NCBI GenBank assembly: GCA_016928395.1 | Contig: JAFGKV010000238.1 | Span: 20,341-84,340, forward strand | DNA from: Candidatus Fermentibacterota bacterium | Lineage (GTDB): Bacteria > JAFGKV01 | DNA length: 64,000 nt | Reading direction: 5' to 3' | Shown: one piece after another, positions 9,901 to 64,000 of the stretch | Layout: each line of letters begins with the position of its first letter | Position numbering within the stretch: position 1 is the first letter of the stretch | Notes under the pieces: generated by a model | What the model saw: the letters and a program-made list of their open reading frames with translations, nothing else | Told to the model about the DNA's origin: nothing | Database searches by the model: none | Made by a program: the position numbers and the translations under genes

Positions 9901-10435
9901 AGCCCTTGCGTTCCTTCCAGTCGAACAGGGCGCCGATGGAACCGGCCAGTTCGTCGGTGCAGACGAAGAGATAGCGGATGCCTGGACTGCGGCTCTCCAG
10001 CTGGATCTGATCCCAGTTAAGCACATAGGGGCGGATCAGCTCGGCGAATGACTGCGGCAGGTATCCCCGGAACGGTGGCATACCCTGATGAACGCCATCC
10101 AGCCGGAGGTCAATGCGAAGATCGATGACACCGTCAGGAACGTCTGTCGGTACATTGGCAATCAACGGCACCACCCGAAGCTCGCGGATCATGGCGGGTT
10201 CACCGGTCTCGACAATGGTCGTGCCCATGCCCGTGCGCATGGAGGTCGCGACGCTGTGGATCTCGATTCCTCCGGGCGCGGCGACGAAACCCAGAGGGAT
10301 TCGCTGGCCAGGGTGTGCGGTGAGAGATGCCTCCAGCGTCACTGAGTGTGTGGCTGTTGCCACCACGTTTATGGTATGGGCCTCCGACGCGGCGCCCATT
10401 CCCAGAACCCCCACAAGTACGAGAAGAAGAAGCAT
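6920..10435 (-). CDS. C25 (gingipain)-family secreted protein with carboxypeptidase-regulatory repeats and T9SS-type sorting domain
   Basis: A 1171-aa secreted protein with a signal peptide (MLLLLVLVGVLGMGAASEA). Order: C25 peptidase-like domain (about 100-500), four carboxypeptidase-regulatory-like beta-sandwich repeats of 80-90 residues (about 555-915, each starting YTIGGTV/YTISGTV-like), a cohesin-like beta domain, and a C-terminal FlgD-like/T9SS sorting domain (about 1085-1171, PNPAAGEVAITF, then RDLTGRVLSRMDL, ending GTYHCQL...LIVLLR). The catalytic Cys position is present (ICLTGDF, near residue 383), but the usual GHG histidine site reads NYRGGVAD, so the His appears absent. It is the last gene of the minus-strand operon. 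Either a pseudo-protease scaffold or an enzyme with altered catalysis. The C25 and sorting-domain calls are firm by motif; activity is doubtful. Confidence 0.88.
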   Translation of the reverse strand: MLLLLVLVGVLGMGAASEAHTINVVATATHSVTLEASLTAHPGQRIPLGFVAAPGGIEIHSVATSMRTGMGTTIVETGEPAMIRELRVVPLIANVPTDVPDGVIDLRIDLRLDGVHQGMPPFRGYLPQSFAELIRPYVLNWDQIQLESRSPGIRYLFVCTDELAGSIGALFDWKERKGLAPQMATLSQTGSTDSAIRQYIRDIYNTSGTLEYVLLVGDHPALPTHDYYNPIVGGYLKSDRYYGTFVGNDELPDVFVGRLPAAGTADLAVMIDKILSYESGEGDGPWMERGTVSSGAEHPTHPGTKRIVRDWLLNFGYDEVDSVFAPSGTAVQLLQKLNDGRNILNYRGGVADRERLAEIGWTQDYCYFMQNGPRRPLVTSIICLTGDFTHTGGAYGECLGESFMRAAGGAIAFFGATHITHTYANNTLDLGIYDGLAYQGLTRIGPITDAGLYYLTYNYPPSDTVTVTVRQYNLLGDPELALWTREPSTMNVSHPSTVPTGTSNVAVSTGVSGSLVCLRGAGVYEAGYADGSGTAYFQITPSTQDAIEVTVTHPGFFPYQGQMTIAAAYTIGGTVRTESGAPLSGAVVSLTGSSTGQVTTGGDGTYAFSDLAAGGNYTVTPTYSDIAGAWPFSPQNRTYSNLQADQWGQDFTGSIPRYTIGGTITSYASVPMEGVTVNLSGFQQAQTTTNAQGSFQFSNLLGAETYTITPTYTPQEGTWSFEPQNRTVQLLNSNHWAEDFVGTPPFYTISGTVRDETNASMEGVRVVLAGEAVDTTTTSANGSYSFSSLAGGRTYTVTPSYDPPEGAWTFTPPSYQFDPLTAPQTNRDFTGVRPRYAITGSIAGRDGEALPGVAVHLSGGWSDSTFTSSVGTYSFEAVPGGLAYQITPSLAYDDSVSWGFFPQEITIANLMSDLAGQTFVAQLPVRLCVGVGSGAPGSTGNPVDIELDNETYNPVSLDSLCFTLVYSAEHGAHVPVEGGVELAGRAEDFVLSYHVDETVAAACSVVVTLRRNATSLVVGTGAICNILFSLEQDADTAYATTLSFAAAAAWDTTGFLIPVDHRDTGMFGTGVHAAPAENPSRLLLHPPVPNPAAGEVAITFSVPRSSRSTLLVRDLTGRVLSRMDLGVLDAGEHGVRWHGVDQNGTTLPNGTYHCQLVACGQSASNLIVLLR

Positions 10436-44064: not shown

Positions 44065-44135
44065 CTTAGGTCAGCACGCGTAACCGGGTCGTAACGCCCC
44101 ATTCTCCTCCACTTTTGGTGAGGCCGCTCCGCGCC

Positions 44136-47100
44136 ATGAATCATTGGCGGATACTACATCTGTTCATAGCCCTTTGTGGCGTTGCGTCTCCCCGCGGGGC
44201 AGCCGTCGGCGTGGGGACGCTGTGGCTGGGATCACCTGCCGGGCCTGCCCACCTGGCCTCGCCGCACCCGCCGCATCTTGTTCTCGGTGCCGATTCCTTG
44301 GCCTTGCTTCGTATGGATAAGGCCGTATGGAAGAAGTATGCGACTGCTCTTGAGTTGCCATGGCTGGATGCAGAGGCACCCACGCTCTTTCGCCTGAATT
44401 CCGACCAACTCTCCTCCCATGCCACGGCAATGGCCCGCAGGGATGTCAGTCGCCTGTGGCACGAGGCGGTTGTGCGCAAGAAGACCGCTTCCGAGAGAGA
44501 AGGGGGTGGTTTGCTCAAGGATATCGAGTTGCCCGTGAAGCTGCCAGGCCTTCTTGGGCATGTGGTGTCGGGCAAGGCGGGGTTGAGGGTTTCGGGGCGG
44601 CAGAGGCTTGAGCTTGGCGGCAGATCTTCCTACCAGGTGGGAGGGCTTGCCGATCCAAATCGGAGCAATTCGAAATTCCCCCAGCTTCACATGGAGCAGC
44701 AGTTGCGGGTGAGCCTCAAGGGGAATGTGGGCGACAAGATCAGTGTGCTTGTGGATCACGACAGTGGCCAGCGATCCAGCGACAAGAACAAGATCCGGAT
44801 ACGATACGAGGGTACCGAAGACGAGATCCTCCGTGAGGTCGAGGCGGGCAACACAAGCCTGTCTCTCGGCAGCGGGCCGGAATTCATTACCCCCAGCTTC
44901 AGCCACCAGGGACTCTTCGGCATTCGGGCCGGAGGCCAGGTGGGGCCTGCGACGCTCACAGTCATTGCCTCCAAGGAGGAGAGCCAGAAGCAGACCACCA
45001 GCTTCACCGGCCAAGCCAAGCTCGATACGATCCAGATAAACGACACGCAATACGTCCATAATCAGTTCTACTCCGTCATGATGATGCCGGGCGCCTCGTC
45101 TCTTGTGATCGACCCCACCGACAGCGTGACCAGTATTACGGTGTACCTCGACAACCAGGTCGACAATGCGGAGCGCATTCAATCCGGCACGAAGGCTATA
45201 TGCTATCTGGACCCGCGGGCTCCCTCCGAAGAAGAGACGTATCGCGGCGTTTTCACTGTGCTGCGGGAGGCTGGCGACTACGATTTTTCCTCGTCCACGG
45301 GCATCCTCGAATTGAAGCAGCCGCTGATGGAGAACAGCGTGCTCGCCGTGGCGTACACCAGCCGGAATCAGGGCGTGGTAGGGGGAGCTGCTATTGGGGA
45401 TTCGGTGAGCCTGAAGTTGGTGAAACCGCCCAACATGAATCCCGAGTCGAAGACGTGGGCCTATGAGTTGCGCAATGTGTACTACCTGGGCTCCCGATCC
45501 ATTGACACCAGCAAGTTCAGACTCACCATCAAGCGGCGGGTAGCTTCGGGAACAGATCTGGAGATCTACAACGGGAACACCTACCTGAATCTTCTGGGTC
45601 TAGACAACGACCGAAACGGCATGGTTGATCTCGACCGATCCGTTTTGGATCCTGATCGTGGCATTCTGGTGTTTCCCAATCCCGAACCGTTCAATCAGCC
45701 AGCCGTGCTGGACACGGTGAATCCCACGATTTACCGCGAGCAGTACAGCAGACTCAAGCCCGAACACAACCTCTACTACCTCGAAGCCAGCTATGAACTG
45801 CTGCAGTCGACGTATGCGCTCAGCCCTTTCATGATCGAGAATTCCGCGGTCGTCAGGGTTAACGGGCGGACCATGGTTCGCGGGCAGGATTATGACATCG
45901 AGTTCTTCGAGTTGCGCTTCCGGGCGGGAGTCATCACCGGACCGGACGACAATGTTGTCATTTCGTACGAGGTGAAGCCCCTGTTCGCCTCGGGCCAGAA
46001 GACGCTGGTGGGTGCCCGCTTCGAACTCCCGACCTCCCGGGTCACCAAGGTGGGCGCCACCTGGATGTACCAGAGCGAGGGCGGACCGCGCACGACTCTG
46101 CTGCCCAGGTTCGGCGAGGAGCCGAGGCGTTCGATGGTGGCCGGGTTGGATGGGCGTGTGGAGTTCAAGCCGCAGTGGCTGACAGATGCGGCCAACTTCC
46201 TGCCCTTCGTGGCGACAGATGCTCCGTCGACTATTACGCTCAGTGCCGAACTGGCCTACAGCATGCCCAACCCCAATATCCGGGGGGGCGCCACGGTGGA
46301 CGATATGGAGGGCAATCGCGAGGCTACCCCCCTGCCATTGGCATTTCGCCGGTGGTCTCTGGGCAGCCTGCCCTTCGGAGTCAACGCCGCAGGGCAGGAT
46401 ACACTGTTCTACTGGCACAATTTCGGCTATAGCGATCCATCCAAGCTGTCCAAGGGCGACATCTATCCCGACAGCGTGCTCACCGACGATCGGGAGCGGG
46501 ATGAGCTGGTGGAGGTCTTGAACCTGCGGGTTCACCCCTCGGCTGATGCTCCCGGTGGGACATGGGCGGCCATCCAGACTCTGGTACAAGCGGGAGGTGC
46601 GGATTTGACCGAGCGGGAGTACCTTGAGGTCTTGGTCCGGGGCGACACGGGGAGGCTGCACATCGATCTCGGGGCGGTCTCCGAGGACCAGGCCAGGAAG
46701 GGGACTGGAGGCAACGGGGTATTGGACACCGAGGATCAGAATCCCCGAGACGGAGAGTTCTTTGCTCTCGAGGAGGACACCGGATTCGATGGCCTGCGCA
46801 ATGCCGATGAACCCGGGGAGGGGCATGACCCCGCAGGAGACGATTACGCCTACGATTCGGCGCGTCCTCAGGACTACACCAAGGTCAACGGGGAAGAAGG
46901 CAACGATGTGTGGGACACCGAGGACCTCAATAGGAACGGCCAGATAGACGTGCGAGAGGCCTTCTTCTCATTCGATCTTCCCCTGGATTCCTACAGCGAA
47001 CTCATCGAGGCAGAGTACCAGAACGGGTGGCGCTTGTTCCGGATTCCGCTGGGAAGCGACCAGGTGGCAAAGGTCGGCAATGCCACGTGGTCCAGTGTGG

Positions 47101-49748
47101 AGTACTGCCGGGTCTGGGCGGAAGGCCTCGGCCAGGAAGACGAGTCATGGATCCAGATCGCGAATCTGGAGGTCGTGGGGAGTACATGGCGGTCCACCGG
47201 CGTCGAAGCGCCGGACGGGCGGATCGACGATTCGGAGGTATTCCGGGTCAAGACCAGGAACAACAAAGACGATGCTCTGTATGTGCCGCCCTTTGACCCG
47301 GGCGAAGACGAGCGAACTGGGTATGTGCGGCGGGAGCAGTCGCTGGTGCTTTCGTTCGAGAGTATCGCCCCGGGGCATTGGGGCAGCGCATATCAGTCAT
47401 TCTACCGCGACCAAGACTACTCGGGCTATCGCGGCATCGCAGTCTGGATTCGACCCCATGAGGTTCGGGATCAGGCGGGTATGGTACTGGATCCCTTGGT
47501 CTGGCTGCGGCTGGGCGCCAATGAGACCGACTACTACGAGATTCGGCTGCGGGCCGAGGCGGATCAATGGCGCAAGGTCGAGATTGACATGGATCAGCTC
47601 ACCCGGACGAAGGTCGATGGCGTCATCGAAACGCCCGAGGGCTATCTGCTCAGAGTAGTGGGGGCTCCCTCGATTACTCGCATTCGTCGGGGTGTAGTGG
47701 GGGTTGAGAACCCGTCAGGACGGCAGATGACAGGTGAGGTCTGGATCGATGAGCTCCATTTGGTCAGGGTCAAACGCGAGCAAGGAGCTGCGAGGCGGAC
47801 CTCTGCCAAGGTGCAGATCGCCAATTTGGCTACCGTGGATGTGGACTACCGCAATCTGGACGCGACCTTCACCCGCCTGGACCAGCGGGGAAGCACGGGC
47901 GCGACCAGCAGCAGTACCACGGGCCAGGTTTCCGGCACTCTCTCGTTGGACCAGTTCTTTCCTGCCCGCTGGGGGATCCGGCTCCCTGTCGCGGCATCGC
48001 AATCCTCCCGTCGCTCAACGCCTCGATTGGCCACGGGAAGCGACGTGACGCTCACCAGCGACGAGCGGCGACGGGAGCGGACCGTTGATCAGAGCCGGAG
48101 GATCAGCATGAATCTGAGCAAGGCGAATCCCTCCAGGCATGCCATCATGCGGGCCACGCTGGACAAGATCCGAGTCTCCGCCTCGTCCAGCAGGACGAAC
48201 AATGCCGGCCCTGCCCGGGCCGACAGCAGCACCTCACATCGATTCTCCGTGGATTGGGGGTGGACAGCTTCTGCGAAGCAGCCGTTGCGGATTCCCTTGC
48301 TGGGGCTTGGGATCAACTACCTGCCCACGTCGGTGTCTCTTGGAGTGACCGGACAACAGACCGACCCCCGCGTGTGGGTCGTCAGCGGGGATTCACTGGT
48401 CTCTTCGCCCACGCGCTTCAGCCGCGATGTGGGCGAGAAGGCATCGGTGGGCTTTCAGCCGGTGAGGGCACTGGATGCGACCTACTCCTTCAACGCTACG
48501 CGCGATTTAACCTACATGTCGTCTAGCAGGGGAGAGCATCTGCTGGACGAGCAGCTACGGTACACTGACCGGGTGCTGCCCTTTTGGCGAATCCTGGAGG
48601 CGCGCGAGACCAGGAGAAACCAACAATTGGGCCTTCGGCTGACCCAGCGGATCGCGGCATGGCTTGACCCGAGCCTGACCTACGATGCGACATACAGCGA
48701 GAACCATGATCCCGGGCTCGCCGCGGCGCAGCCAGATTCCCAGGATGTGCGGGACGCGTCCACCAACACCAGCGCCAAGGCTCGGGCTACCTTCTCGCCT
48801 TCCCAGTTTCTCTCGTGGGTTTCCCGGATGCTGGGCAAGACGAAGTGGATGGAGGATGTCGCACGCATCGGCGGGAAACTGCAGGCTATCCAGGGCAGCG
48901 TCGGTACCACCGTCTCGTCCAGCTACCGTGAACTCACCGAAAGACCCCCGCTGGGATACCAGTTTGGAGTGTGGCAGTCGCTGGAGGGGTCCGTACCTCA
49001 TGACCTTTCCCGGCGGAACTCGTGGGATCTCAGCGGCGGAATCCAGATTCTGAAGGACCTGCGCGCCACTGCACGAACAAGCTCCGAACGCACCCGGCGG
49101 GCATACAGCGGTGCCGAGACCGGGACGACCAGTTCCACGTTCCCGGATGTTGACGTCAGCTGGACGGGTCTCCACACAGTGGGCCCGCTCAAGGGAAGGG
49201 TGGCCAGCTCCACCGTTCGGTCAGCCCTGCGGATCACCACCGGCACCAGCGGCAAGTATGAGGGTGGAATCTTCAGTAAAGACGCAACTACCCGCCGGGA
49301 GGACTACTCGCCGCTTCTGAGCGTGAGCCTGACCCTCAAGAACCGGCTGACCTTCACGCTGGGAGATACGTATTCCAAGGATGAACGCGTGGATCTGCTA
49401 CAGGCCATTCCCTCCACACGCACCTCTACGTCTCACCGCAGCAATGCCGCGGTGCAGTACGCCTTCAGCGCACCCCAGGGTTTGACCCTGCCCGTAGTGG
49501 GACAAATGAAGTTCAATTCGGATCTTAGATTGTCACTGGATATATCGCGGGATCGCCGTCTGGACAGAATAGGGGGGGCAGCACCCACCACCGACACGTC
49601 GACCTGGTCGGTGCGCCCAGGGGCCTCCTATGATTTCGGGGTGGTGGACTCCGGCGTGGAGATCGAAGTCGGCCAGACGAGCAACAGCAAACTCAACCAG
49701 ACGAGGCGTGAGATTGGGCTGAGAGTATGGGTGAACTTTCCTTTCTGA
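44136..49748 (+). CDS. sprA: SprA/Sov-type T9SS outer-membrane translocon
   Basis: About 1870 aa, with signal peptide MNHWRILHLFIALCG. It matches SprA in order and motif: an N-terminal region with KIRIRYEGTEDEILREVEAG and GLFGIRAGG, mid-protein blocks (RGGATVDDMEGNREATPL, YSGYRGIAVWIRP), and a long Tyr/Ser/Thr-rich C-terminal half of amphipathic strands ending in WVNFPF, an outer-membrane barrel terminus. SprA forms the very large barrel through which T9SS cargo leaves. It is shorter than the roughly 2400 residues of Bacteroidete SprA. The start is uncertain (ATG 44136 used; TTG 44115 and GTG 44118 in frame). It overlaps the following cargo gene by 22 bases. Confidence 0.92.
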   Translation: MNHWRILHLFIALCGVASPRGAAVGVGTLWLGSPAGPAHLASPHPPHLVLGADSLALLRMDKAVWKKYATALELPWLDAEAPTLFRLNSDQLSSHATAMARRDVSRLWHEAVVRKKTASEREGGGLLKDIELPVKLPGLLGHVVSGKAGLRVSGRQRLELGGRSSYQVGGLADPNRSNSKFPQLHMEQQLRVSLKGNVGDKISVLVDHDSGQRSSDKNKIRIRYEGTEDEILREVEAGNTSLSLGSGPEFITPSFSHQGLFGIRAGGQVGPATLTVIASKEESQKQTTSFTGQAKLDTIQINDTQYVHNQFYSVMMMPGASSLVIDPTDSVTSITVYLDNQVDNAERIQSGTKAICYLDPRAPSEEETYRGVFTVLREAGDYDFSSSTGILELKQPLMENSVLAVAYTSRNQGVVGGAAIGDSVSLKLVKPPNMNPESKTWAYELRNVYYLGSRSIDTSKFRLTIKRRVASGTDLEIYNGNTYLNLLGLDNDRNGMVDLDRSVLDPDRGILVFPNPEPFNQPAVLDTVNPTIYREQYSRLKPEHNLYYLEASYELLQSTYALSPFMIENSAVVRVNGRTMVRGQDYDIEFFELRFRAGVITGPDDNVVISYEVKPLFASGQKTLVGARFELPTSRVTKVGATWMYQSEGGPRTTLLPRFGEEPRRSMVAGLDGRVEFKPQWLTDAANFLPFVATDAPSTITLSAELAYSMPNPNIRGGATVDDMEGNREATPLPLAFRRWSLGSLPFGVNAAGQDTLFYWHNFGYSDPSKLSKGDIYPDSVLTDDRERDELVEVLNLRVHPSADAPGGTWAAIQTLVQAGGADLTEREYLEVLVRGDTGRLHIDLGAVSEDQARKGTGGNGVLDTEDQNPRDGEFFALEEDTGFDGLRNADEPGEGHDPAGDDYAYDSARPQDYTKVNGEEGNDVWDTEDLNRNGQIDVREAFFSFDLPLDSYSELIEAEYQNGWRLFRIPLGSDQVAKVGNATWSSVEYCRVWAEGLGQEDESWIQIANLEVVGSTWRSTGVEAPDGRIDDSEVFRVKTRNNKDDALYVPPFDPGEDERTGYVRREQSLVLSFESIAPGHWGSAYQSFYRDQDYSGYRGIAVWIRPHEVRDQAGMVLDPLVWLRLGANETDYYEIRLRAEADQWRKVEIDMDQLTRTKVDGVIETPEGYLLRVVGAPSITRIRRGVVGVENPSGRQMTGEVWIDELHLVRVKREQGAARRTSAKVQIANLATVDVDYRNLDATFTRLDQRGSTGATSSSTTGQVSGTLSLDQFFPARWGIRLPVAASQSSRRSTPRLATGSDVTLTSDERRRERTVDQSRRISMNLSKANPSRHAIMRATLDKIRVSASSSRTNNAGPARADSSTSHRFSVDWGWTASAKQPLRIPLLGLGINYLPTSVSLGVTGQQTDPRVWVVSGDSLVSSPTRFSRDVGEKASVGFQPVRALDATYSFNATRDLTYMSSSRGEHLLDEQLRYTDRVLPFWRILEARETRRNQQLGLRLTQRIAAWLDPSLTYDATYSENHDPGLAAAQPDSQDVRDASTNTSAKARATFSPSQFLSWVSRMLGKTKWMEDVARIGGKLQAIQGSVGTTVSSSYRELTERPPLGYQFGVWQSLEGSVPHDLSRRNSWDLSGGIQILKDLRATARTSSERTRRAYSGAETGTTSSTFPDVDVSWTGLHTVGPLKGRVASSTVRSALRITTGTSGKYEGGIFSKDATTRREDYSPLLSVSLTLKNRLTFTLGDTYSKDERVDLLQAIPSTRTSTSHRSNAAVQYAFSAPQGLTLPVVGQMKFNSDLRLSLDISRDRRLDRIGGAAPTTDTSTWSVRPGASYDFGVVDSGVEIEVGQTSNSKLNQTRREIGLRVWVNFPF

Positions 49749-52943: not shown

Positions 52944-53618
52944 ATGATGGTGAAGAGGAACGGTGGTATCTCTCTCATTGATGTTATGATCGTGCTCGCG
53001 GTGATAGCCGTGATAGCCGTGTTGCTTGTGCCCAAGTACAATGAGAAGAAAGCACGGGAACTCAGAGCCGAGATGATCACGGAAGCTCGGGAAGCCATGC
53101 TCGAGGCAAAGCTCGCCCAAGAACTCCATTTTGAGCGGCATGGCCGGTTCACCGACGATCTCAATGAGCTGGCTGTCTTCAACCCCGCATTGCGTGATCT
53201 GAGGTGTCCTTTCGACAAGGCACCGTACGCCATCGCCTACGACTCCACACGGTTTGCGATCTCCTGTTCCGTGCCGGATCCAGGCGCCATCGAGGGCGGC
53301 GTTCCATCGTGGCTGGCGGAGCCGGGCGCCGAGGGACTCCGCGCCTCATTGATCATGCGATCCAGGGATCGCATGGCGAAGGTGGCCGCCGCGCTGGATT
53401 CATTCAAGGCAATCACCGGATCGTATACCGCCGATCTGGATACTCTGGAATCCCAGACGCCGGGTGTTAAGAACCTCTTGTGCCCCCTCATGATGAAGCG
53501 GTTCTCCATTATCCTGTCTGACTCGCTTGGATACGAAGTGACATCCCATCTGGACGAGGTTGGACGGATCGTGGATGGCACGCCGGATTACCCACCCCTA
53601 CCGACCCCCAAGACCTGA
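52944..53618 (+). CDS. Type IV pilin/pseudopilin-like protein with duplicated globular domain
   Basis: A 224-aa protein; AAAGGAGAG precedes ATG 52944. The class III prepilin leader is short (KRNGG), with cleavage expected after the second Gly, leaving ISLIDVMIVLAVIAVIAVLL as the N-terminal helix. Position +5 is Asp, not the usual Glu. Two similar halves follow: RHGRFTDDLNELAVF with LRDLRCPF, and ITGSYTADLDTLESQ with VKNLLCPL, each after a helix and each ending in a beta segment. That makes a tandem duplication of the pilin head. The prepilin peptidase follows within 102 bases and the four MshEN-AAA+ genes after that, so it is the likely assembled subunit of this locus. Confidence 0.85.
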   Translation: MMVKRNGGISLIDVMIVLAVIAVIAVLLVPKYNEKKARELRAEMITEAREAMLEAKLAQELHFERHGRFTDDLNELAVFNPALRDLRCPFDKAPYAIAYDSTRFAISCSVPDPGAIEGGVPSWLAEPGAEGLRASLIMRSRDRMAKVAAALDSFKAITGSYTADLDTLESQTPGVKNLLCPLMMKRFSIILSDSLGYEVTSHLDEVGRIVDGTPDYPPLPTPKT

Positions 53619-53720: not shown

Positions 53721-54497
53721 TTGTGCTTCACGGCTAGTCTCACGCTGCCCGTGTTCGCGCTAGGAGCGTGCATCGGCAGTTTTCTGAACGTGGTGGTCTA
53801 CCGGTTGCCGCGGGGCGAGTCAGTGGCATGGCCGGGTTCGCGATGCCCCTGGTGCACGGCGCCGCTGGCGGCGTTGGACAACATACCGCTCTTCAGCTTC
53901 CTGCTGCTTTCCGCCCGGTGCAGGTACTGTGGCGCGCCCATAGCCTTGCGCTACCCGGTGGTGGAAGGCATTGGCGGTCTGCTGGCAGTGTGTACATGTA
54001 TCCTGTGGGGTTTTACACCATCAGGCCTCATGTGGGCGGTGTTTCTTGCCACTTTGGTGGCGGTGGCGCTGATCGACCTCGACACTTTCGTGATTCCAGA
54101 TTCTCTGTGCCTCCTTCTTGTTGGCTGCGGGCTCGTGCTGGCCCATGTGTCTCCCGATGAGGGATCATTGTCTTCTCGGCTTCTCGCGGGGGCGCTGAGT
54201 GCGGGGGGTGTGTGGGCGTTGAGTGTGATGACTCGTGGAGGCATGGGCATGGGCGATGCGAAGCTCCTTGGCGCCATGGGAATCGCACTGGGGCCGCGCG
54301 GAGTGGCGTTCGCATTCGGTCTCGCCGTGCTGTTGGGGGCCATCTCAGGTGTATGGCTGCTGGCTCTCAAACGTAAGCGGAGCGGAGATCCCGTTCCGTT
54401 TGGGCCATTTCTCGTCCTGGGCGCACTGGTGGCTGCACTGGGCGGGAACCAGATAGCTGAATGGTATTCGAGGGCACTCCTCGGTATCTTGGATTGA
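53721..54497 (+). CDS. pilD: Prepilin peptidase/N-methyltransferase (PilD/GspO type)
   Basis: A 258-aa polytopic membrane aspartic peptidase. An in-frame stop at 53715 leaves TTG 53721 as the earliest start. The N-terminal block GSFLNVVVYRLPRGES, the two CxxC pairs (CPWC and CRYC) of the methyltransferase region, and the catalytic aspartates (ALIDLDTFVIPD and GMGMGDAKLLG) are all present. It should cleave and methylate the pilin-like protein upstream. The gene lies 101 bases before the first MshEN-AAA+ gene, so it probably belongs to the same system. Confidence 0.95.
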   Translation: MCFTASLTLPVFALGACIGSFLNVVVYRLPRGESVAWPGSRCPWCTAPLAALDNIPLFSFLLLSARCRYCGAPIALRYPVVEGIGGLLAVCTCILWGFTPSGLMWAVFLATLVAVALIDLDTFVIPDSLCLLLVGCGLVLAHVSPDEGSLSSRLLAGALSAGGVWALSVMTRGGMGMGDAKLLGAMGIALGPRGVAFAFGLAVLLGAISGVWLLALKRKRSGDPVPFGPFLVLGALVAALGGNQIAEWYSRALLGILD

Positions 54498-54598: not shown

Positions 54599-57550
54599 AT
54601 GCCTGGGAAACAGCCGAATGCCTTTGTTGATATTCTGGTTGCCGAAGGCCTGCTTTCCAAGAAGCGAGCCCGGGACATCATCAAGTCTTCCTCACGGGTG
54701 GGGAAGTCATCCATCGAACTAGCGATCGAGGAAGGCGCCGTTGCCCTTGATGCCGTGGATCGGGTTGCAGAGAACATGGGTCTTAGCTGCCCTGATCTTG
54801 ATACCTCGATGGTTGACTGGCTCGCAGTGAATCGGGTCACTCTGGCCGAGGCCCAGAGGATTCCTATGGCGCCGCTGGTGGGCGACGGGAAAGAGCTGCG
54901 AGTCGCTGTCGTCGACCCATTCGATGCGGACCTTGTCGGTCTGCTCCGGGATCAGTTTGGCTGTCCCGTAACCCTCATGTTTGCACATCCCGCCCGAATC
55001 CGGGCCGTTCTTGCACAAGGCCCTCCCGCCGAAGGCGAGGGAGATCTGGCTGCTGTTGCTTCCTTCGCCGACTTCGTGGTGGATGAAGGCCAACGCCGTG
55101 TCGTTGAGGAAGTGCAAAACTTCATTCGCACCGATACGGAATGGCGACGTCCTGTGCTGCTGGTAGGTCCAGGTTGCGTGGGCAAGACCCATTTGCTCAA
55201 CGCTGCTCGGCAGGAGTTGGGCAGCCTGCACCCGAGTCGCACCGTGCTTTTCATTGAAGGCCGGCATGCTAAAGATAAAACCGCTCCCTTTGGCACCCAT
55301 CTCTCTCCTGGTGGGTTGATCCTGGATGATCTGGATTCCCTCGCCGGAGATGCGCGGCTGGAAGAGGCTTTCATGCAGGCGTTCAATACGGTTTTCCAAC
55401 AGGGAGGGCCCATCATTGTCTCCAGCAGCAAGCCGCTGGCCTCCATGGAGCCTCTGTCGATGCGCGTCAGGGCCGCTCTGGGCATCTGTCGGCCTTTGAC
55501 GCTGGTCGCGCCCAAGCAGGAAACCATCGTCACCATCGCATTCCGGGTGGCAGAGAAGGCCGGCGTGGAGTCCAAGGGAGTAAACTGGGGCGTTTTGGTG
55601 CAGGAAGCTGGCGGAGATCTCCGGCGAGTGCTTGAGGCGATTGGCGGCGGCAGATCCGTTCGCGGTGCAGGCCGTGTCGCCGAGACTACGGTTACTGCTT
55701 TCGAGCCACGAGTCAGCCCCTCGGAAGAGTCCGGCGCCGCCCGAACAGCCGCGCTCTTACGCGAGGAGGCGGAAGCAATCATCAGCGAGGCAAGAACCGC
55801 CATCGATGAGATCGAGCAACGGCCTGGAGCTATCGACTCCGAGCTCCTGGATCGCGCCAAGGATGCTTTGGCGCAGGCGATTCGCGCGCGGGATTCCGGC
55901 GACTTCGATGCAAGTGAGCAACTAGGAATGGAGGCGCTGGAGAAGGCGGCGCTTGCCCACAGTCGGTCGGAGGGGACGATGGTCGCGAAGAGTCCGCCCG
56001 AGGCTGCGGCCACACCGAAGCAATCACAGCCGGTGCTGGCGCCCTACACCGAGCCGGAGGGTACTGATGAGCACGTGAAGGCATCGCTTCGGGAGGCTGA
56101 GAAGGCGATCCGAGATGCATGTGATGCCGGGGCTGAGGAATACGCTTCTCGCGAGCTGCGGATGGCCGTCAACGGGCTCGAGGAAGCGCGGCGGATAGCG
56201 GCGGATCCCGCGTTGCGTGCGCGGGCCGTTGACGAGGCCCGGCTGGCGGCGGAGCAGGCGTGGGATGCCGGACGAAGAGCCAAGACCAGAAAGGAAGAGG
56301 CTCGGATCAAGCAGGAGAAAGACAAGGTCCGCCGTTGTCAGATGGCAATTGAGGAGGTACGGAAAGAGCACGAGCGTCTTGCAGTGCATGAAGGTGATAC
56401 ACCCATCGTCGCCCAGCTTGAGGAAGTTGGGGTTTTTATCGACACGGCCGCGCAGTACCAGGAAGTCGGAAGCATAGGTCAGGCGCTGGAGCATGTGATG
56501 AAGGCCCGGAAGCGCCTCAACGAGATCTCAGATGAAGCGCGGCTTCGTCGTGAACTTCGCGACATCATAAACGAAGTGGACGGTCTCGTCGGTGAGGCAG
56601 ACAAGCGTGGCGAGACGCAGAGTCCTCAGCAACTGGTCGACATCCAGAACGCCTTGGCAGAAGCAGAGCGAGTGCTCATGGGTGACAGCGCCGACTATGA
56701 GCTGGGACTAAACTGGGCACGAGTCGCCCGACAGAAGGCCTTGAGACTGGCCGAAGGGGGCACCGATCGTCGATCGAAGGACGTCGGCAAGTCCAAGCGG
56801 CAGGATGGACCTGAGCTCACTTTCGATAGTCTCGAAGTGTGCGAGGGCAACCAGTTTGTCATCGCCATGGCCAGGACCGCAGCTGAGACACCTCACCTCG
56901 TCAAGAGCCCCCTCTACGTTTTTGGCGACGTCGGGGTGGGGAAGACCCACCTCTTATCTGCGATTCAAGATCTGGCCAAGAAGACGCATCCTGACAACTC
57001 CGTTGTTCTCACGACTGCAGCGGATTTCTCCGAAGACTACCGTGAGGCCCTTGCCCTGGGCAAGGCATCGTCCTTCAGGGAGGCCTACCGTGCCTCGGAT
57101 CTGTTCATCCTCGATGACCTGCACCACATCGTAGCGAATCCCGATGGGATTCGCGAGTTCTTCCATACGTTGAGCGCCATCGAGGCATCAGGCGGTTTGG
57201 CCGTGGTATCGGCCGCCGTTCCCCCGCGGAAGCTGGGGATTGATGACAAGAGCTTTCGGTCGCGTCTCGAGGGTGGTGTGACAGCAGAGATGAAGTACCC
57301 CTCTCTGGAGGCGCGCGAACGCATACTCCGCCACGCGGCGAAGCGCTACGATTTGAAGATTCCTGATGAGGCCATTACTCTTCTGGCTACCATGATCACC
57401 AGCAATGTGCGGGAACTCCTCGGCGCGTTGGGCAAGGTCGCCGCGCATTCCCGCGCCGAGGGCGGCCAGGTCACTGGTGAGATCATGAGAAGGGTTCTTC
57501 AAGAGGTGCTTCCGGGGCCCAGTGAGGACGAAAAGTGGCTTCACTCATAG
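54599..57550 (+). CDS. MshEN-like domain + two DnaA-type AAA+ modules + helical repeats (cluster gene 1)
   Basis: A 983-aa protein with GGGAG before ATG 54599. Order: MshEN-like domain (about 10-140; both 24-residue motifs are recognisable but degenerate, AFVDILVAEGLLSKKRARDI and SSIELAIEEGAVALDAV); first AAA+ (about 155-360: Walker A GPGCVGKTHLLNA near 190, Walker B LILDDLD near 243); charged helical region with repeats (about 375-735); second AAA+ (about 745-975: Walker A GDVGVGKTHLLSA near 776, Walker B LFILDDLHH near 839, sensor-2 helix SNVRELLGALGKV). The second module keeps the DnaA-like arginine finger (FRSRLEGG); the first reads MRVRAALG there. No DNA-binding domain IV. It overlaps the next gene by 16 bases. 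Product name unknown; the domain calls are strong. Confidence 0.85.
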   Translation: MPGKQPNAFVDILVAEGLLSKKRARDIIKSSSRVGKSSIELAIEEGAVALDAVDRVAENMGLSCPDLDTSMVDWLAVNRVTLAEAQRIPMAPLVGDGKELRVAVVDPFDADLVGLLRDQFGCPVTLMFAHPARIRAVLAQGPPAEGEGDLAAVASFADFVVDEGQRRVVEEVQNFIRTDTEWRRPVLLVGPGCVGKTHLLNAARQELGSLHPSRTVLFIEGRHAKDKTAPFGTHLSPGGLILDDLDSLAGDARLEEAFMQAFNTVFQQGGPIIVSSSKPLASMEPLSMRVRAALGICRPLTLVAPKQETIVTIAFRVAEKAGVESKGVNWGVLVQEAGGDLRRVLEAIGGGRSVRGAGRVAETTVTAFEPRVSPSEESGAARTAALLREEAEAIISEARTAIDEIEQRPGAIDSELLDRAKDALAQAIRARDSGDFDASEQLGMEALEKAALAHSRSEGTMVAKSPPEAAATPKQSQPVLAPYTEPEGTDEHVKASLREAEKAIRDACDAGAEEYASRELRMAVNGLEEARRIAADPALRARAVDEARLAAEQAWDAGRRAKTRKEEARIKQEKDKVRRCQMAIEEVRKEHERLAVHEGDTPIVAQLEEVGVFIDTAAQYQEVGSIGQALEHVMKARKRLNEISDEARLRRELRDIINEVDGLVGEADKRGETQSPQQLVDIQNALAEAERVLMGDSADYELGLNWARVARQKALRLAEGGTDRRSKDVGKSKRQDGPELTFDSLEVCEGNQFVIAMARTAAETPHLVKSPLYVFGDVGVGKTHLLSAIQDLAKKTHPDNSVVLTTAADFSEDYREALALGKASSFREAYRASDLFILDDLHHIVANPDGIREFFHTLSAIEASGGLAVVSAAVPPRKLGIDDKSFRSRLEGGVTAEMKYPSLEARERILRHAAKRYDLKIPDEAITLLATMITSNVRELLGALGKVAAHSRAEGGQVTGEIMRRVLQEVLPGPSEDEKWLHS

Positions 57551-58803
57551 AACTGCTCGTATCTCGACAGATGATCTCTTCCGAGCAGGCTCGTGAAGCG
57601 GCGGCTCTATCAGAAGAGACTGGGGCTTTCATAGGGCGAATCCTCGTTTCTCAGGGAGCAGTGGAGGAGCAAATGCTGGCTCGTTTTCTCGAGCGGGAAT
57701 GCACCGAGAAGCCGGGGGCTCTGCACATCGAGGCAGACGCTCAGTTGATGCAGTTGCTCCCCGAGAGGCTCATGCGCACCTACCGCATGGTCCCCTTGGG
57801 AAGATCTCCCTCCGGCGTCCTGAAGCTCGCAGTATCGGAGCCGCTATCCATAGGCGGCATAGACCAGGTGAAGCGCCGGCTGGGAATGCCCGTCAGGCTG
57901 ATTCTGGTGGATTCTGATACCATCGAGACGCTGCTGGGTGTGCCCGTGCAGTCCGTGGCGGTCCAGCCCCCGCTACCTCCAGAGCCTACCTCCGCATCGG
58001 TGAGCCTGGCTCCCTCGCGTCCTATTCACACTCCGTCTACCTCTGCTGCGTCCGCGGAGGGTTCTCTTGCACAGGATCAGGGCGCAGTGTTGCGGCCTCG
58101 AATGGTGCGCCAGCGGGTTGATGCTCCTGAGGACTGGCAGCCCGATCCCGTGCCGGGCGAGCTTCCTTCGGTCCTGGAGGAAGCCTTCAATGCGCTTCAG
58201 TCCGTCGTGGAAAGCAGCCAGCACGTGTTCTTAGTGGTCACTGGTCCGGATTCTGCGAGGGACCTAGTACTCAGGAAGCTGCGCACGGTCACATGGGGAG
58301 ACCACGAGGCATTCTATCTGGATCTGATCGCCCATCATTTTCCTGCTGAGGTTGATCATCAGCGCAGAGTTCCTACCATACTGGACGGAGTTGACGTGGC
58401 CGGGATCGATGAGGAAGAGGAGCGGCGCCTTCTCCGTACCATCAGCGCAGCGTATGCTGCCAAGACACCGCTGGTGCTTGGAATGAGGAAGAGCCCTAAG
58501 GAGTCCCAGAATTTGAGTGGAGGCCTGCGACTCACGCTTGGCCTGGCCAAGATGGTGCCCATCGAGGTAGAGGAGACCGCGGAGAGATCCGCGTCTCCAC
58601 CTGATTTTGAACAGCTATTCCTGGCCTTGGCCGATGAGACTGCGGCTTGGAGTGAGGCGGCATTTGCCGGGGCGAGTCTTCGTCCTCTGCTCCAGGCCGC
58701 TTCTCGAGCGTATACGAGGGGAAGCCGACAGGAGGCTCTCGGCAAGGCAGCAACGGCCGTGGCCAGCCGCGTTTCTCATCTCACCGAGGAGCGGCTTGGC
58801 TGA
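57535..58803 (+). CDS. MshEN-like domain + degenerate AAA+ (cluster gene 2)
   Basis: A 422-aa protein; GTG 57535 lies inside the end of gene 1. The MshEN-like domain spans about 1-135 (LIELLVSRQMISSEQAREAA and FIGRILVSQGAVEEQMLARF, then VLKLAVSEPLSIGGID). A Pro/Ser-rich linker (about 140-190) leads to a region shaped like an AAA+ fold (about 205-370), but its P-loop reads VTGPDSARDLVL near 240 with no GKT, and the Walker B area reads ILDGVDVAGIDE. It should not hydrolyse ATP. It may be a structural or regulatory partner of the active modules. Its stop overlaps the next start (ATGA), indicating coupling. Confidence 0.78.
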   Translation: MASLIELLVSRQMISSEQAREAAALSEETGAFIGRILVSQGAVEEQMLARFLERECTEKPGALHIEADAQLMQLLPERLMRTYRMVPLGRSPSGVLKLAVSEPLSIGGIDQVKRRLGMPVRLILVDSDTIETLLGVPVQSVAVQPPLPPEPTSASVSLAPSRPIHTPSTSAASAEGSLAQDQGAVLRPRMVRQRVDAPEDWQPDPVPGELPSVLEEAFNALQSVVESSQHVFLVVTGPDSARDLVLRKLRTVTWGDHEAFYLDLIAHHFPAEVDHQRRVPTILDGVDVAGIDEEEERRLLRTISAAYAAKTPLVLGMRKSPKESQNLSGGLRLTLGLAKMVPIEVEETAERSASPPDFEQLFLALADETAAWSEAAFAGASLRPLLQAASRAYTRGSRQEALGKAATAVASRVSHLTEERLG

Positions 58804-60074
58804 TGCCAAGGCGGCGGAATACTCGTGCCGGGCTTGGAAGACGTTTCGGCCGAACCCTGGTTCGATGGGGAGCAGTCACCGAAGCTCAGTTGAAGGAGGC
58901 CCTGACTCATCAGCACGAGCGCGGGGGTCTCATAGGCAGATGGCTTGTCGAAACAGGTGCAGTGTCCCCAGGAAGAATGAGAGACCTCCTCGATCGGTTT
59001 CATCGGCGGCGGCATCTGTCGGTGGCTAATCTCCGCATCGACCGCGAAGTGCTGCGGGTTCTCACGAAAGATCTTGCGTGGGCATGGTGCGCACTACCGT
59101 TGGATATCTCAGATGGCGATCTCGTTGTCGCTGTCCCTGATGCTTCTGAGACCGAATGCGTCGCCACTCTCGCCGACGCAACCGGCATGACGATCCAGCC
59201 GGTCTCGTGTCCTGAAGACGAAATTGCTGAGGCCATCCGACGTCACTACGGATCTCAGGGCGTGATCCCCGACGAGTGGTTGTTTGGATCGGCTCCTCTC
59301 TCGAAGTTTCGCTTCGAGACCTACGTGGTCGGCGAGGCGAATCGACGTGTGTATGAGGCAGCCATGGCTGTTGCGGTGGCACCCGGGGTGCGACATAATC
59401 CGCTTTTCGTGTATGGGGAAGTAGGGCATGGCAAGACGCATCTTCTGAATGCCATCGGCAATCGGATCAGAGAGGAGCGTCCCTCAAGCATAGTACTCTA
59501 TCTCCCAGCAGTTCGTTTCGCTGATGAGCTCCTTCGTGCAATAGAGCATAACAGACTCGTGGAATTCCGGACGGTATACGCGCGTACGACGGTGCTTCTA
59601 CTGGATGATGTGCAGTTCCTGGCCGATCAACGGGCCGTCCAAGAGGAGTTCGCGAACCTCTTCGAAGTGCTGCAGGCGAGGGGACGGCAGATCGTTATCA
59701 CCAGTGATCGTGCTCCCGAGGAAGTACAGACCTTGGCGGATCGAGTTAAATCGGGACTTGGCGCTGGGCTCATTGTCGGCGTGGAAGTCCCCAGCATCGC
59801 GATGAAGGCTGCGATTCTCATGGAGAAGCGGCGTGAGCATAAGTGGGCCTTGCCCGATAATGTCATTACCCGCGTCGCGCACGAGTTTGACGGGGATGTG
59901 AGACGGCTAGAGGGGATACTCCGAACTGTATGCGCACGGATTGAACTTGACAGCGGCAGGCCGATGGACGAAATATTATCTTCTGTTCTTACAACTGTGC
60001 ATTCAGATACAGGCGTCGCGGAACCGTGGGAGTCCGCCCCCGAGTTGCGGGCTCGAACACATCCAAACCGATAG
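58803..60074 (+). CDS. MshEN domain + DnaA-type AAA+, arginine finger missing (cluster gene 3)
   Basis: A 423-aa protein. The MshEN domain (about 10-150) is well preserved: RFGRTLVRWGAVTEAQLKEA and LIGRWLVETGAVSPGRMRDL, separated by the usual five-residue spacer. A DnaA domain-III-type AAA+ follows (about 170-400): FRFETYVVGEANRRVYEA, Walker A GEVGHGKTHLLNAIGN near 205, Walker B VLLLDDVQFLADQRAVQEEF near 268, sensor-1 ITSDRAPEE, sensor-2 GDVRRLEGILRTV. At the DnaA box VII arginine-finger position (E. coli Arg285, SRF) it reads VKSGLGAG, so that Arg seems to be lost. No domain IV or HTH after the AAA+. Gene 4 begins nine bases on. Confidence 0.88.
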   Translation: MPRRRNTRAGLGRRFGRTLVRWGAVTEAQLKEALTHQHERGGLIGRWLVETGAVSPGRMRDLLDRFHRRRHLSVANLRIDREVLRVLTKDLAWAWCALPLDISDGDLVVAVPDASETECVATLADATGMTIQPVSCPEDEIAEAIRRHYGSQGVIPDEWLFGSAPLSKFRFETYVVGEANRRVYEAAMAVAVAPGVRHNPLFVYGEVGHGKTHLLNAIGNRIREERPSSIVLYLPAVRFADELLRAIEHNRLVEFRTVYARTTVLLLDDVQFLADQRAVQEEFANLFEVLQARGRQIVITSDRAPEEVQTLADRVKSGLGAGLIVGVEVPSIAMKAAILMEKRREHKWALPDNVITRVAHEFDGDVRRLEGILRTVCARIELDSGRPMDEILSSVLTTVHSDTGVAEPWESAPELRARTHPNR

Positions 60075-60083
60075 GTGAGCACG

Positions 60084-63000
60084 ATGGCGAAGCAGCAGCA
60101 ACAGCGGCTCGGCGACCTACTCGTCGAACATAAGGTTATCACCAAGAAACAGCTGAAGCAGGCGCATGAGGAGCAGTCGCGTGACACTGAGGGTCGCCGA
60201 TTGGGGAGAATCCTGATTGACCTTAACTTTATTGGTGAAGAGACTCTTATCAGTTTTCTTGCACGGCAGTGCGGAATGCCTCACCTACGTTTGGGTGATT
60301 ACGAGATAGACAGTGAGGTAATAAAGTACGTATCTCCTGAACTTGTAACAAAGTATCAGGCTGTACCCATCGACAAACTTGGGAAAATACTCACTGTTGC
60401 CATGGTTGACCCTTTGGACGATGAGGCGCTTGACGGCCTGCAGAAGGCCACTGGCTTCGTGGTCAAGCCTATCGTGTGTTCAGAAAAGGACATCGAGGAC
60501 GCAATTGATCGGTACTATGGTGCGGGAGTGCTTGAGGCCAGTAAGGAAAGCCGCAGGCGGGCGGTCGCTGAAGCGTCGGGTCGGCCCACGGCAGAGCAGG
60601 AACCGGTGGCAATCGAGGAGAGTCTGGATGGCCTCCGGCCTCTGAAGCCATATACCTTCGACGAGTTCGTCGTCGGTCACGCGAACCAGTTCACCTACGC
60701 GACGGCCAAGGCCGTTGCTGAGGCTCCCGCACAGGACTACAACCCTCTGTTCATCTACAGCGGCGTTGGTCTCGGAAAGACCCACTTGGTCAATGCAATA
60801 GGCAACCACATCCTTGCCCGTGACCCAGGATCCCGCGTCATCTATCTCTCTTCGGAGCGATTCACTGCTGAACTAGTCAGTGCGATTCAGAGGAATGATA
60901 TCAAGAGTTTTCGGCGACGCTACCGTGAAGTGGATGTTCTGCTTCTTGATGACATTCACTTTCTGGCGGGCAAGGAGCGTGCTCAGGAGGAGTTCTTCCA
61001 CACGTTCAACGAACTCTACAATGCACACAAGCAAATCGTCACGACCAGTGATCGGCCACCCAAAAGCATGCTTACTTTGGAGAAGCGCCTTCGGAGTAGG
61101 TTCGAGGGCGGGATTATCACCGATATCCAGCCGCCCGAGTATGAAACGAGATTGGCGATACTCCACAAGAAGATGGAGCGGATGGGACAAAGTGTGGATC
61201 AGCCGGTGCTTGAGCTTCTGGCTGAGCGCATCACATCCAATATCCGAGAGCTGGAGGGCGCATTACGAGGGGTGATCGCGTCTGCAGAGGCTGCTGGCGA
61301 GTCTATTACCCGGCGTTACGCCGAGCGGGTCTTGGATGAGATTCTTGGCGAGACAGAGGCTGCGTCCAGGCAGCGCGAAGTGGAAGAGGAAGTTGCTGAA
61401 ATCATCACGAAGGCCAAGGCGCGGCTCCAGGATGTGGTTGATGCCGGGGTCGAAGCCGAACTGCCCGAGGGTGTTGAGAACGTTCGCTCTCAGCTTGAGG
61501 TGGCCAATCAGGCGCTACGAAGTGGTGATCTGAATGCGGCCCGGAGCGCCGCGATGGAGGCACGGGAGCGAGCGGTGGCATTATTGCGGGAGCAAGAGGA
61601 AGGCCGGAAAGTCCGGGCGCGTGAACGGATCGAATCTGGGCTGAGGGAGAAGGTAGGCACTCTGCAGCAGCTAATCGATCAGGCCGCACAGGTCGGAGTC
61701 GGGGAAGAGGTTGTCCAGGGTTTCTCCTCGTCCCTCTTGAACTTCGAGGGAGAAATGGCCCGCGGCGGAGATCCTGTACCGCTGGAGGCTGAGGTTGGCA
61801 GACTCTTGAAACAGGTCGCGAAGGCAATCGAGGAGGCGAGTATGAGCTCCCGTGCCGCTGAAGATTCTCGCTCTTTGGACTGGGAAATCACCGGTGTGCA
61901 AGCCGAGATGGATCGTTTGGCAGCGGCTACCCAGGGTCGCCTTGGGGCGCAAGCTTCGGAGGCGGAGCGTCTCCTTCGGGAAGCTATCGGTCTGGTCCGG
62001 GCAGGAAAGCACACACAAGCCCGTGCTCTGGTGAAGCAGGCCAAGGAGATCGCGACTGCGCTCAAGGCTGCGGGTATCGAAGATGCAGAGGAGCCGCAGA
62101 AGCTTGATGCCGATCAGGCCGTGAAGAGCGCGGCGACTGCCATCGAGCGAGCGAAGGCGGAGGGTGCAGCGCAGCTTGCGGCCCAACCTCTTGAAGAGGC
62201 GGAGGATCTGGTCATCAACGCCGAGGCGATGCTTGAAGCTGAGGAGTTCGATGAAGCGCTCGCCTATGCTTTGCGGGCTGAGGAGGCAGCACTGCGGGCG
62301 TCGGCGTCGGCCATCGAGCAAAGAACAGCCATCAAGCGCCAGGAGACTGAGCAGAACCTCGCCAAGGCGGCGGAACTGGTGGCATTGGCGACCGAGAGCG
62401 GCGCCGAAGAGTACTCCCGTGAGGACCTCGACGCCATTACTGCCAGCCAGGTCGAGGCCAAAGCTGCTGTGGAGCAGGACCGGGTCATCGAGGCTTTCGA
62501 CCTTAGTCAGTCTCTGCTCCGAGCTTCTCAGAAGCTGCTCAACGACACCAAGGCGCGAAAGACCGAATCCCTCCGAAAAGCCCTTGCCGATCGCCTTTCC
62601 CGTGCTGAAGAAACGATCGAGCGCGCCCGTGGCCGGGGCGCGGCAAAGTACTGCCCAAGTGATCTTGGTGACGTGGAGAAGCTCCTGGGAGACGGAAAGA
62701 AGCTTCTGAAAGCCGGTCAGTTTGAGAAGGGGCTGGAGGTCTCAGAGGAGATTCCTGCTCGTGTCGATGCCTTGGCGCAGAAGACAGAACAAGCGCGGGA
62801 CGCGGAAGAGTCGCTTCGCAAGCGGAGCAAGGAGACACTTCGGGAGGCAGAGTCGATCCTGCAGGGGGCTCTTGCTGCGGGTGCACTTCGCTATGTACTG
62901 AAGACCTTCCAGGACGCGCAGGTTGCCCTTGCCCGGGCGGTTGAGCTTGTTGAGGGTGAGGATCCACAGAAAGCGTTCCAGGAGAGCCAGACGGTACTGT

Positions 63001-64000
63001 CACAAGCCCGGCGTGTGATCGAGTCTATCGAGGAGAAGAAACTCGAGGTCAAGCGGCAGGAACTCCAAACCGTCATCGAGGGCGCGAAGGCGAATCTAGA
63101 GAATGCCGTGAAGGAAGGGGCCGAGAAGTACGTACCCTCTCTGTTGGAGGAGGCTCGGAACTCTCTGGCTCTGCTTCAGACTGCATACGATGAAGCCAAG
63201 TATGACGATGGCCTTGCACTCAAGGGACAGCTTGTGGAACTGGTGCGACAGACGCGTCAGGAATCCGAGCAGAGGCGTCTCCGGGAGGAGAGGACTAGGA
63301 ATCGCTGCCAGCAGTTGCTGGGTACAGCCAAGGATCTCGTGTCTCAGTCGGAAGCCTTGGAGGCATCGCGGTACGCGGGTGCCCAGTTGAAGCAGGTGAG
63401 AGGGCAGATCGAGGACGTAACTCATCATCTCGATGAGGATAAGGTAGAGGAGGCGGAAACACTCGCTCAGGCAACGCTTTCCATGGCTGAGAATCTCTTG
63501 GCTGCCACGCAGGAGGAACGCGGCGCCGAGATGAAGCGCACACTCCAGGGCTATGTCGAGACTCTCTCCGAGATGCTCAGCCTTACTCTGGAAACAGGCG
63601 GCCGTCGATACGCACCCGAGAAGGTGCAGCGCGCGGAGGCTCAACTGGGAGAGATTCGGCAGAGCCTCGAATCTGGTGAGTATGAAGCTGGCCTCGAGGG
63701 AGCGGAGCCTCTGGAGGCTCTGCTGGTGCAGCTCCAGGACGAGACTGAGACCAAGCGGAAGGAAGAAGAGGAGCTGCGTCGAACAACCCGAGCGGCGCTG
63801 GACCGTTCCGAGGAACTTCTCGGTGAGGCCATAGCTATCGGTGCTGAGGAGTTCGCCGAGGAGTCTCTCAAGAACGTTCAGGCTCTCTTTAGCAGGGCTT
63901 CCGATGTCGGTCGAGGTGATGACACTCGGCGGGCCTTTGAGCTGTCACAGGGGGTTGTTGAACGGGCTGCCAAGTTGGTCGAGGAAGCGAGAGTACGGAA
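60084..64000 (+). CDS. MshEN domain + canonical DnaA-type AAA+ + 80-residue helical repeats, 3'-truncated by the window (cluster gene 4)
   Basis: Open to the right edge, at least 1305 aa. ATG 60084 follows AGGTGAG (60073-60079). The MshEN domain (about 5-140) has intact tandem motifs ([20 protein letters not shown] and [20 protein letters not shown], then [11 protein letters not shown]), so it may bind c-di-GMP. AAA+ (about 195-420): [17 protein letters not shown], Walker [17 protein letters not shown] near 227, Walker [21 protein letters not shown] near 289, sensor-1 TTSDRPP, arginine finger LRSRFEGG near 339, sensor-2 [13 protein letters not shown]. This is close to replication DnaA, yet instead of domain IV a charged helical array begins near 430 and continues to the edge. 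The first 330 bases use more AT-rich codons than the neighbours. Not the replication initiator. Confidence 0.88.
61446..64000 (+). repeat. Array of at least eleven ~80-residue helical repeats in cluster gene 4
   Basis: A landmark of the GAxxY type ([63 protein letters not shown]) recurs at residues 455, 538, 618, 694, 773, 852, 933, 1012, 1093, 1172 and 1253. Each is followed by L-x-x-A and a G-x-(Y/F)-x-x-A/G-L helix. The mean spacing is 80 residues (240 bases). The DNA copies are well diverged, so this is protein-level repetition resembling the DUF4398 type; similar units occur in gene 1 near residues 410, 511, 598 and 672. Confidence 0.8.

Follow-up and report, generated by a model that had tools for sequence, protein, structure and literature searches.

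Four consecutive genes fusing MshEN domains to DnaA-type AAA+ modules lie in a type IV pilus operon of a Candidatus Fermentibacterota bacterium

Which cellular process is served by proteins that carry a DnaA-type AAA+ core behind the N-terminal domain of a pilus motor? DnaA-type AAA+ cores are familiar from replication initiation and helicase loading, and the question is raised here by four consecutive genes, g1–g4, at the end of a 64,000-nucleotide stretch of DNA (the window; positions 20,341 to 84,340 of contig JAFGKV010000238.1, assembly GCA_016928395.1) from a Candidatus Fermentibacterota bacterium. An earlier note on this DNA had described four genes that each begin with an MshEN domain and continue into DnaA-like AAA+ modules, and had proposed a hetero-oligomeric assembly responsive to cyclic di-GMP (c-di-GMP) that acts at the envelope, or on DNA or protein filaments, rather than in replication. 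We found the cluster to be part of a type IV pilus (T4P) operon, and the explanation that we favor is a control or scaffold ATPase of the pilus.

The products were searched with Pfam, in which the cut-offs are 23.1 bits for MshEN (PF05157) and 23 bits for Bac_DnaA (PF00308). All four passed the MshEN cut-off, as the earlier note had supposed (g1, 30.7; g2, 47.4; g3, 57.0; and g4, 72.0 bits), and Bac_DnaA scored 142 bits in g1 (best in the C-terminal module), 169 bits in g3, and 227 bits in g4. NCBIfam agreed with Pfam, and a model of the MshE-type c-di-GMP domain was also matched in g2, g3, and g4. The Pfam search for the DNA-binding domain IV of DnaA (Bac_DnaA_C, PF08299) gave no match in any of g1–g4, again as had been claimed, and none of the four matched the motor domain T2SSE (PF00437), which is present in the neighboring PilB and PilT. 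These results confirmed that the fusion of MshEN to the domain III AAA+ of DnaA is real in this cluster, with DnaA modules in g1, g3, and g4 (Table 1). The first AAA+ module of g1 is divergent yet clear, scoring 56.8 bits (E = 4e-19) in a model built without that module. The AlphaFold2 model of g3 had a mean pLDDT of 79, and its AAA+ half matched domain III of DnaA (8bv3) with a TM score of 0.92 by target length. The claimed continuation into an AAA+ module was less clear in g2, whose C-terminal region had no Pfam AAA match. This region scored 11.3 bits in a model that left out g2, and 0.2 bits when the first module of g1 was also left out (the best of 500 shuffles scored 2.6 bits), so it is labeled a probable pseudo-AAA, whose AAA+ nature is likely by eye. 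A profile–profile comparison of g2 with the fusions matched the MshEN part alone, and AlphaFold2 on a g2 fragment (pLDDT 47.5) was uninformative on the fold.

The 16 bp overlap of g1 and g2, the 1 bp overlap of g2 and g3, and the abutting ends of g3 and g4 suggest that these successive open reading frames (ORFs) of the forward strand form one operon. The fourth runs past position 63998 and is cut where the window and its contig (C299) stop together (84340 of 84340). In another genome of the same family (G002), the full-length g4 ortholog has 1993 amino acids and comprises MshEN, a DnaA-type AAA+ module, an array of about 14 ∼80-residue helical repeats, of which the weakest two are marginal, and a further DnaA-type AAA+ module. 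Over the shared part, g4 is 63% identical to this ortholog, and g3 is 64% identical to its counterpart; in g1, a fourth, weak copy of the repeat occurs near residues 415–451. Just upstream of the cluster lie pilD and a pilin-like gene, the latter with no Pfam match, and G002 has a similar pilin-like gene at the equivalent place (L057:2623-3303). The order in G002 is pilin, pilD, g1–g4, a TonB_C membrane protein gene, pilB, pilT, pilC, pilS, pilT2, and pilR, in which a PilS-type kinase and a PilR-type regulator flank the second pilT. In the genome of the window (G000), contig C154 begins with pilS-pilT2-pilR, and its pilT2 is 84% identical to that of G002. Because the G002 operon is intact and these three genes open C154, the cluster in the window is part of a T4P operon split by an assembly gap. 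The protein encoded between g4 and pilB in G002 (L057:15978-17432) is rich in proline at its N-terminus, crosses the membrane once, and contains helical repeats and a TonB_C domain; it is a candidate envelope partner of g4.

Is this arrangement peculiar to one family? A fusion profile was used to survey 386 genomes, most phyla being represented by one to three of them, and full-length matches were restricted to four lineages, which have them within or close to sets of pilus or polarity genes; scoring covered the top few candidates of each genome, so divergent fusions like g1 and g2 could be missed. In all three genomes searched from one phylum (G026, G173, and G311), a single fusion lies directly upstream of pilB, and pilT, pilS, pilR, and pilC follow. 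In G268, the fusion is ∼6 kb from pilB-pilC, and another genome of that phylum has no fusion. In G118 and G255, its neighbors are DUF4388 genes and the genes of an MglA-like small GTPase and an MglB-like roadblock protein; G382 has it next to a DUF4388 gene of the same kind. No fusion was found in 195 genomes of one further phylum, for each of which part of the candidates was scored, and the plasmid and phage collections contained no match covering 80% of the fusion query. The fusions count as T4P-associated proteins in the sense that their genes accompany those of T4P motors in separate lineages. The envelope role proposed earlier is supported by two placements, that of the cluster inside a T4P operon in this family and that of the fusion immediately upstream of pilB in a second phylum. 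The pilus operon, with pilD and the pilin-like gene, the repeats and second AAA+ module that g4 carries, and the occurrence of fusions in further phyla all go beyond the earlier note.

The catalytic residues were compared using Escherichia coli DnaA as the ruler (K178, Walker A lysine; D235/D236, Walker B; R285, arginine finger; R334, sensor II). Both modules of g4 (g4_N and g4_C) and the C-terminal module of g1 (g1_C) keep complete sites, including the arginine finger, which is lost in three of the six modules: g3 (G), g1_N (A or S), and g2 (T). The g2 module also lacks the Walker A lysine and sensor II. G000 and G002 agreed in this pattern wherever a module was available in both, g4_C being read in G002 only. 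All seven single fusions of other lineages keep every one of these residues, together with a full-length initiator-specific insert. Ordered hetero-oligomers, ORC and RFC for example, are typically recognized by such unequal loss, with fingers contributed by some subunits and nothing but sites by the rest. Judged from the residues, ATP sites and arginine fingers have been lost unevenly among the subunits here; fingerless g3, g1_N, and g2 beside complete g4_N, g4_C, and g1_C would imply an ordered hetero-oligomer, and g1–g4 may form one complex. The hetero-oligomer suggested earlier gains support from this pattern. The ancestral form was probably a single self-assembling fusion.

The relation of these proteins to DnaA itself was examined next to that of other known systems. 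Of 13 Bac_DnaA matches in the genome, one, on contig C126, is an ordinary full-length DnaA with a C-terminal helix-turn-helix (PF08299, 95.5 bits), and because of this separate dnaA, g1–g4 were ruled out as the replication initiator. When 68 AAA+ domains were placed in a tree, one branch (98/79) set the DnaA rows apart, with no fusion among them. The proposal of a role outside replication thus agreed with the presence of an ordinary dnaA and with the MshEN matches, the two points on which the earlier note had let it turn. The AAA+ module of g4 resembles DnaA in domain III, the initiator-specific insert, Walker A/B, the arginine finger, and sensor II, whereas the fusions differ from DnaA in that no domain I was seen, domain IV is absent, and they fall outside the DnaA clade. 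Like Hda, they are DnaA-type AAA+ proteins without the DNA-binding domain, but they have an added MshEN domain, keep the initiator-specific insert, and score 129, 79, and 87.5 bits against a cut-off of 194.8 bits for the Hda model (TIGR03420). With PilB, GspE, and MshE of T4P and type II secretion systems, they share the N-terminal MshEN/GSPII domain, operons, and a predicted docking site, but carry a DnaA-type AAA+ in place of the T2SSE motor. Regulators of the FrzS, AglZ, PilZ, and FimX type combine a signal-input domain with a scaffold or adaptor that acts on pilus motors or polarity; to our knowledge, none has a DnaA-type AAA+ core.

Other DnaA-type AAA+ proteins occur in the same and other genomes. 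Proteins with a receiver domain before a DnaA-type AAA+ are also sensor–AAA+ combinations, and both of those inspected lack the arginine finger, but they carry a receiver instead of MshEN and are scattered outside the pilus operon. Those included in the AAA+ tree make up a single clade with g3 as its sister; g3, along with the extra solo fusions, groups with the receiver-DnaA proteins of the same genomes (100/97). Several were seen in each of G000 and its two relatives (L062, L064:2189-4042, L066-L071, L073-L075, and L217-L222), and they have the look of a DnaA-type response-regulator family that is so far undescribed. Giant proteins of 1750-2132 amino acids with a DnaA-type AAA+ at the end were seen in G014 (L198:8958-15356, which carries a long TPR array), G162 (L199:8725-14085), and G301 (L200:4480-9732), and two proteins of ∼700 amino acids in G107 (L204:5392-7497 and L205:6924-9017) consist of two tandem DnaA-type AAA+ modules. 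A second, MshEN-free DnaA-type AAA+ protein lies near a PilT-type ATPase gene in G118 (L203:3233-6872; 709 amino acids) and G240 (L206:8932-17314; 611 amino acids), with glycine-cleavage-type genes between them by eye.

The proposed c-di-GMP responsiveness was judged from the binding motifs. MshEN binds c-di-GMP via two 24-residue motifs and a 5-residue spacer (PMC5013675), and an extended consensus of the motif is available (PMC11731258). The two motifs of g3 scored 9 and 7 of 10 key positions (16/20) with a spacer of 5, and those of g4 scored 8 and 9 (17/20) with a spacer of 7 and without Gly10, which is replaced by K and N, while one Leu is replaced by H. In g1, each motif scored 4/10 and neither is kept; in g2, only the second is kept; and in the G118 lineage both have been lost. 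The genome encodes a GGDEF diguanylate cyclase (L065:7186-8097, contig C126), directly beside the true dnaA. Based on these motifs, g3 and g4 are the only members in which control by c-di-GMP is plausible, and c-di-GMP sensing is the weakest part of the explanation that we favor. Because the motifs are near consensus in g3 and g4 yet lost in g1 and the G118 lineage, the common feature of the fusions is the MshEN domain family, not the c-di-GMP motif. The MshEN domain is mobile in G000. One ORF of 825 amino acids (L209:1951-4428, contig C318) joins a phosphopentomutase-type metalloenzyme, MshEN, and cytidine deaminase domains, and is possibly a nucleoside-salvage enzyme with a c-di-GMP-type domain. 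Two further MshEN fusions were seen (L208:4017-5183 and L207:9875-10648): one has a ParA/MinD-type P-loop region by eye, with no Pfam match there, and in the other the MshEN N-terminal part is apparently doubled.

Table 1. Positions of the cluster, its domains, and its upstream neighbors in the window, and of orthologs in G002.
Feature	Position	Strand	Description
Pilin/pseudopilin-like gene	52944..53618	+	N-terminal hydrophobic stretch GGISLIDVMIVLAVIAVIAVLL, by direct reading
pilD, prepilin peptidase	53721..54497	+	PF06750 1.2e-30, PF01478 5.1e-16; 51% identity, equivalent position in G002
g1	54599..57550	+	983 amino acids; degenerate MshEN, divergent DnaA-like AAA+, short helical repeats, second DnaA-like AAA+
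g1 ortholog in G002	L057:4309-7260		51% identity
g1 MshEN domain	54779..55018	+	Residues 61-140; PF05157 3.3e-7, 30.7 bits; c-di-GMP motifs lost
g1 first AAA+ module	55046..55648	+	Walker A/B and sensor II kept; arginine finger replaced by A; initiator-specific insert shortened
g1 helical repeats, g4 type	56108..56776	+	3 copies by iterated repeat model; DUF4398 2.7e-8
g1 second AAA+ module	56789..57517	+	DnaA domain III; Walker A/B, arginine finger, sensor II; PF00308 2e-41
g2	57535..58803	+	422 amino acids; MshEN and probable pseudo-AAA without Walker A
g2 ortholog in G002	L057:7245-8555		44% identity
g2 MshEN domain	57535..57936	+	PF05157 2e-12; second c-di-GMP half-motif alone recognizable
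g2 putative degenerate AAA+	58162..58746	+	GPDSARD where Walker A GxxGxGKT is expected; alignment by eye
g3	58803..60074	+	423 amino acids; MshEN and DnaA-type AAA+; PF05157 2e-15, PF00308 1.5e-49
g3 MshEN domain	58842..59261	+	Two near-consensus c-di-GMP motifs, standard 5-residue spacer
g3 AAA+ module	59286..60011	+	Walker A/B and sensor II kept; arginine finger replaced by G
g4	60075..63998	+	MshEN, DnaA-type AAA+, ∼80-residue helical repeats; cut by contig end
g4 MshEN domain	60105..60524	+	PF05157 4e-20; near-consensus c-di-GMP motifs
g4 AAA+ module	60633..61358	+	PF00308 1.3e-67; every tested DnaA residue kept
g4 helical repeat array	61428..63998	+	Period ∼80 residues; 8 copies in the window by iterated repeat model

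What, then, would such proteins do at the pilus? On a slight balance of probability, we regard the fusions as a T4P control or scaffold ATPase with an MshEN N-domain and a DnaA-type AAA+ core. PilM forms the socket that receives PilB, and the N1D of PilB is likely to touch PilM (PMC11656802). The MshEN/GSPII domain of the fusions would bring the protein to this docking place at the base of the pilus; that of g3 and g4 might additionally read c-di-GMP. PilM is present in all 11 genomes searched, one of them without the fusion. The core would oligomerize on ATP binding, and this nucleotide-dependent assembly would position, gate, or scaffold the pilus motors; g1–g4, with up to six modules, would build an ordered hetero-oligomer in which the giant g4 forms a long spacer between two AAA+ heads. 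A bolder form of the proposal, which we hold tentatively and at somewhat less than an even chance, is that the DnaA-fold AAA+ represents an undescribed class of T4P machine component, nucleotide-switched, docked through a PilB-type N-domain, and controlling the motors, expanded here into an ordered hetero-oligomer of ≤ 6 modules with a giant double-headed scaffold. The MshEN tree, with 22 short domains, is weak on the origin of the N-domain relative to the pilB of the operon itself.

Several observations weigh against a T4P control or scaffold ATPase. The predicted binding to PilM follows from the domain family, and the operon context hints at the process involved but not at how the proteins work. 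Few genomes carry the fusion, which is therefore not a core part of the T4P, its linkage to pilB-pilC is loose in G268, and its neighbors in the G118 lineage are polarity-type genes rather than pilus motor genes. G001 and G002 also carry extra solo MshEN-DnaA paralogs away from pilus genes. The c-di-GMP motif is imperfect or missing in g4, g2, g1, and the G118 lineage, as set out above, and the AAA+ fold of g2, likely by eye, is putative and at best a pseudo-AAA. Finally, g4 and most single fusions keep the residues by which DnaA holds single-stranded DNA (ssDNA), so a nucleic-acid role is possible.

These residues bring in a DNA-handling ATPase of pilus-linked uptake, in which the DnaA-type core would bind incoming ssDNA at the base of the pilus and MshEN would tie it to the T4P machine. 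In E. coli DnaA, roles of V211, R245, and R285 have been described, including ssDNA binding by V211 and R245 (PMC12122000). The AAA+ module of g4 keeps K178, V211, D235, D236, R245, R285, and R334, and g4 and most single fusions retain counterparts of V211 (or I/L) and R245 with the full initiator-specific insert, but g3 and g1_C lack the ssDNA basic residues. ComEC-type proteins occur in all 11 genomes; such matches were also found in most control genomes, however, and are thus of no help in telling the explanations apart. Competence genes were not seen beside the fusions, whose neighbors are motors, PilS/PilR, or MglA-type genes, and we consider DNA uptake unlikely.

An improbable explanation of about the same rank is a polarity or gliding-type trans-envelope scaffold, in which g4, the TonB_C protein, and MglA/MglB-like partners would organize the pole and also place pili. 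In its favor are the genes for an MglA-like GTPase, a roadblock protein, and DUF4388 proteins that adjoin the fusion in the G118 lineage, the one-span TonB_C protein between g4 and pilB, and the giant repeat architecture of g4. However, the direct neighbors are the pilus motors themselves in two lineages, and neither G002 nor G026 showed an MglA-type gene close to the cluster. A shade less probable still is a link between surface state and cell cycle, in which the cores would co-assemble with DnaA or inactivate it and so report c-di-GMP or pilus state to replication. Hda is a precedent for such a DnaA-fold regulator, g4 has the full DnaA-type interface residues, and the diguanylate cyclase gene adjoins dnaA; the shortfall against the Hda model (≤ 129 vs 194.8 bits) and neighbors that are pilus or polarity genes rather than replication genes argue the other way. 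A chance fusion or assembly artefact without function might be suspected in a fragmented assembly (343 contigs) whose contig ends inside g4, but it is rejected by independent genomes, one with the same gene order, 44–80% protein identity, and conserved catalytic residues, and by the presence of fusions in four lineages.

Elsewhere in the window, an SprA_N protein (44115-49748) and two C25-type peptidases (6920-10435 and 19183-22914) were seen, which suggest that this lineage has a type IX secretion system, and a CHASE2-type adenylate/guanylate cyclase adjoins a mechanosensitive channel with a cyclic-nucleotide-binding domain (45-3342).

In the open-licence literature searched, no paper was found that links a DnaA-type AAA+ to MshEN or T4P. 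As far as could be checked, the parts are known, and their combination, its recurrence with pilus or polarity genes, and the putative expanded hetero-oligomer are undescribed. The product of g4 passes the NCBIfam DnaA cut-off (348.7 vs 343.9 bits), and this is a warning that automated annotation will name some such fusions DnaA. Fusion of the DnaA-type core with the N-domain of a pilus motor in four lineages suggests that an ATP-switched assembly has been recruited to run or place a surface machine, and it offers a testable answer to how pilus motors may be regulated through the poorly understood N1D/PilM site.

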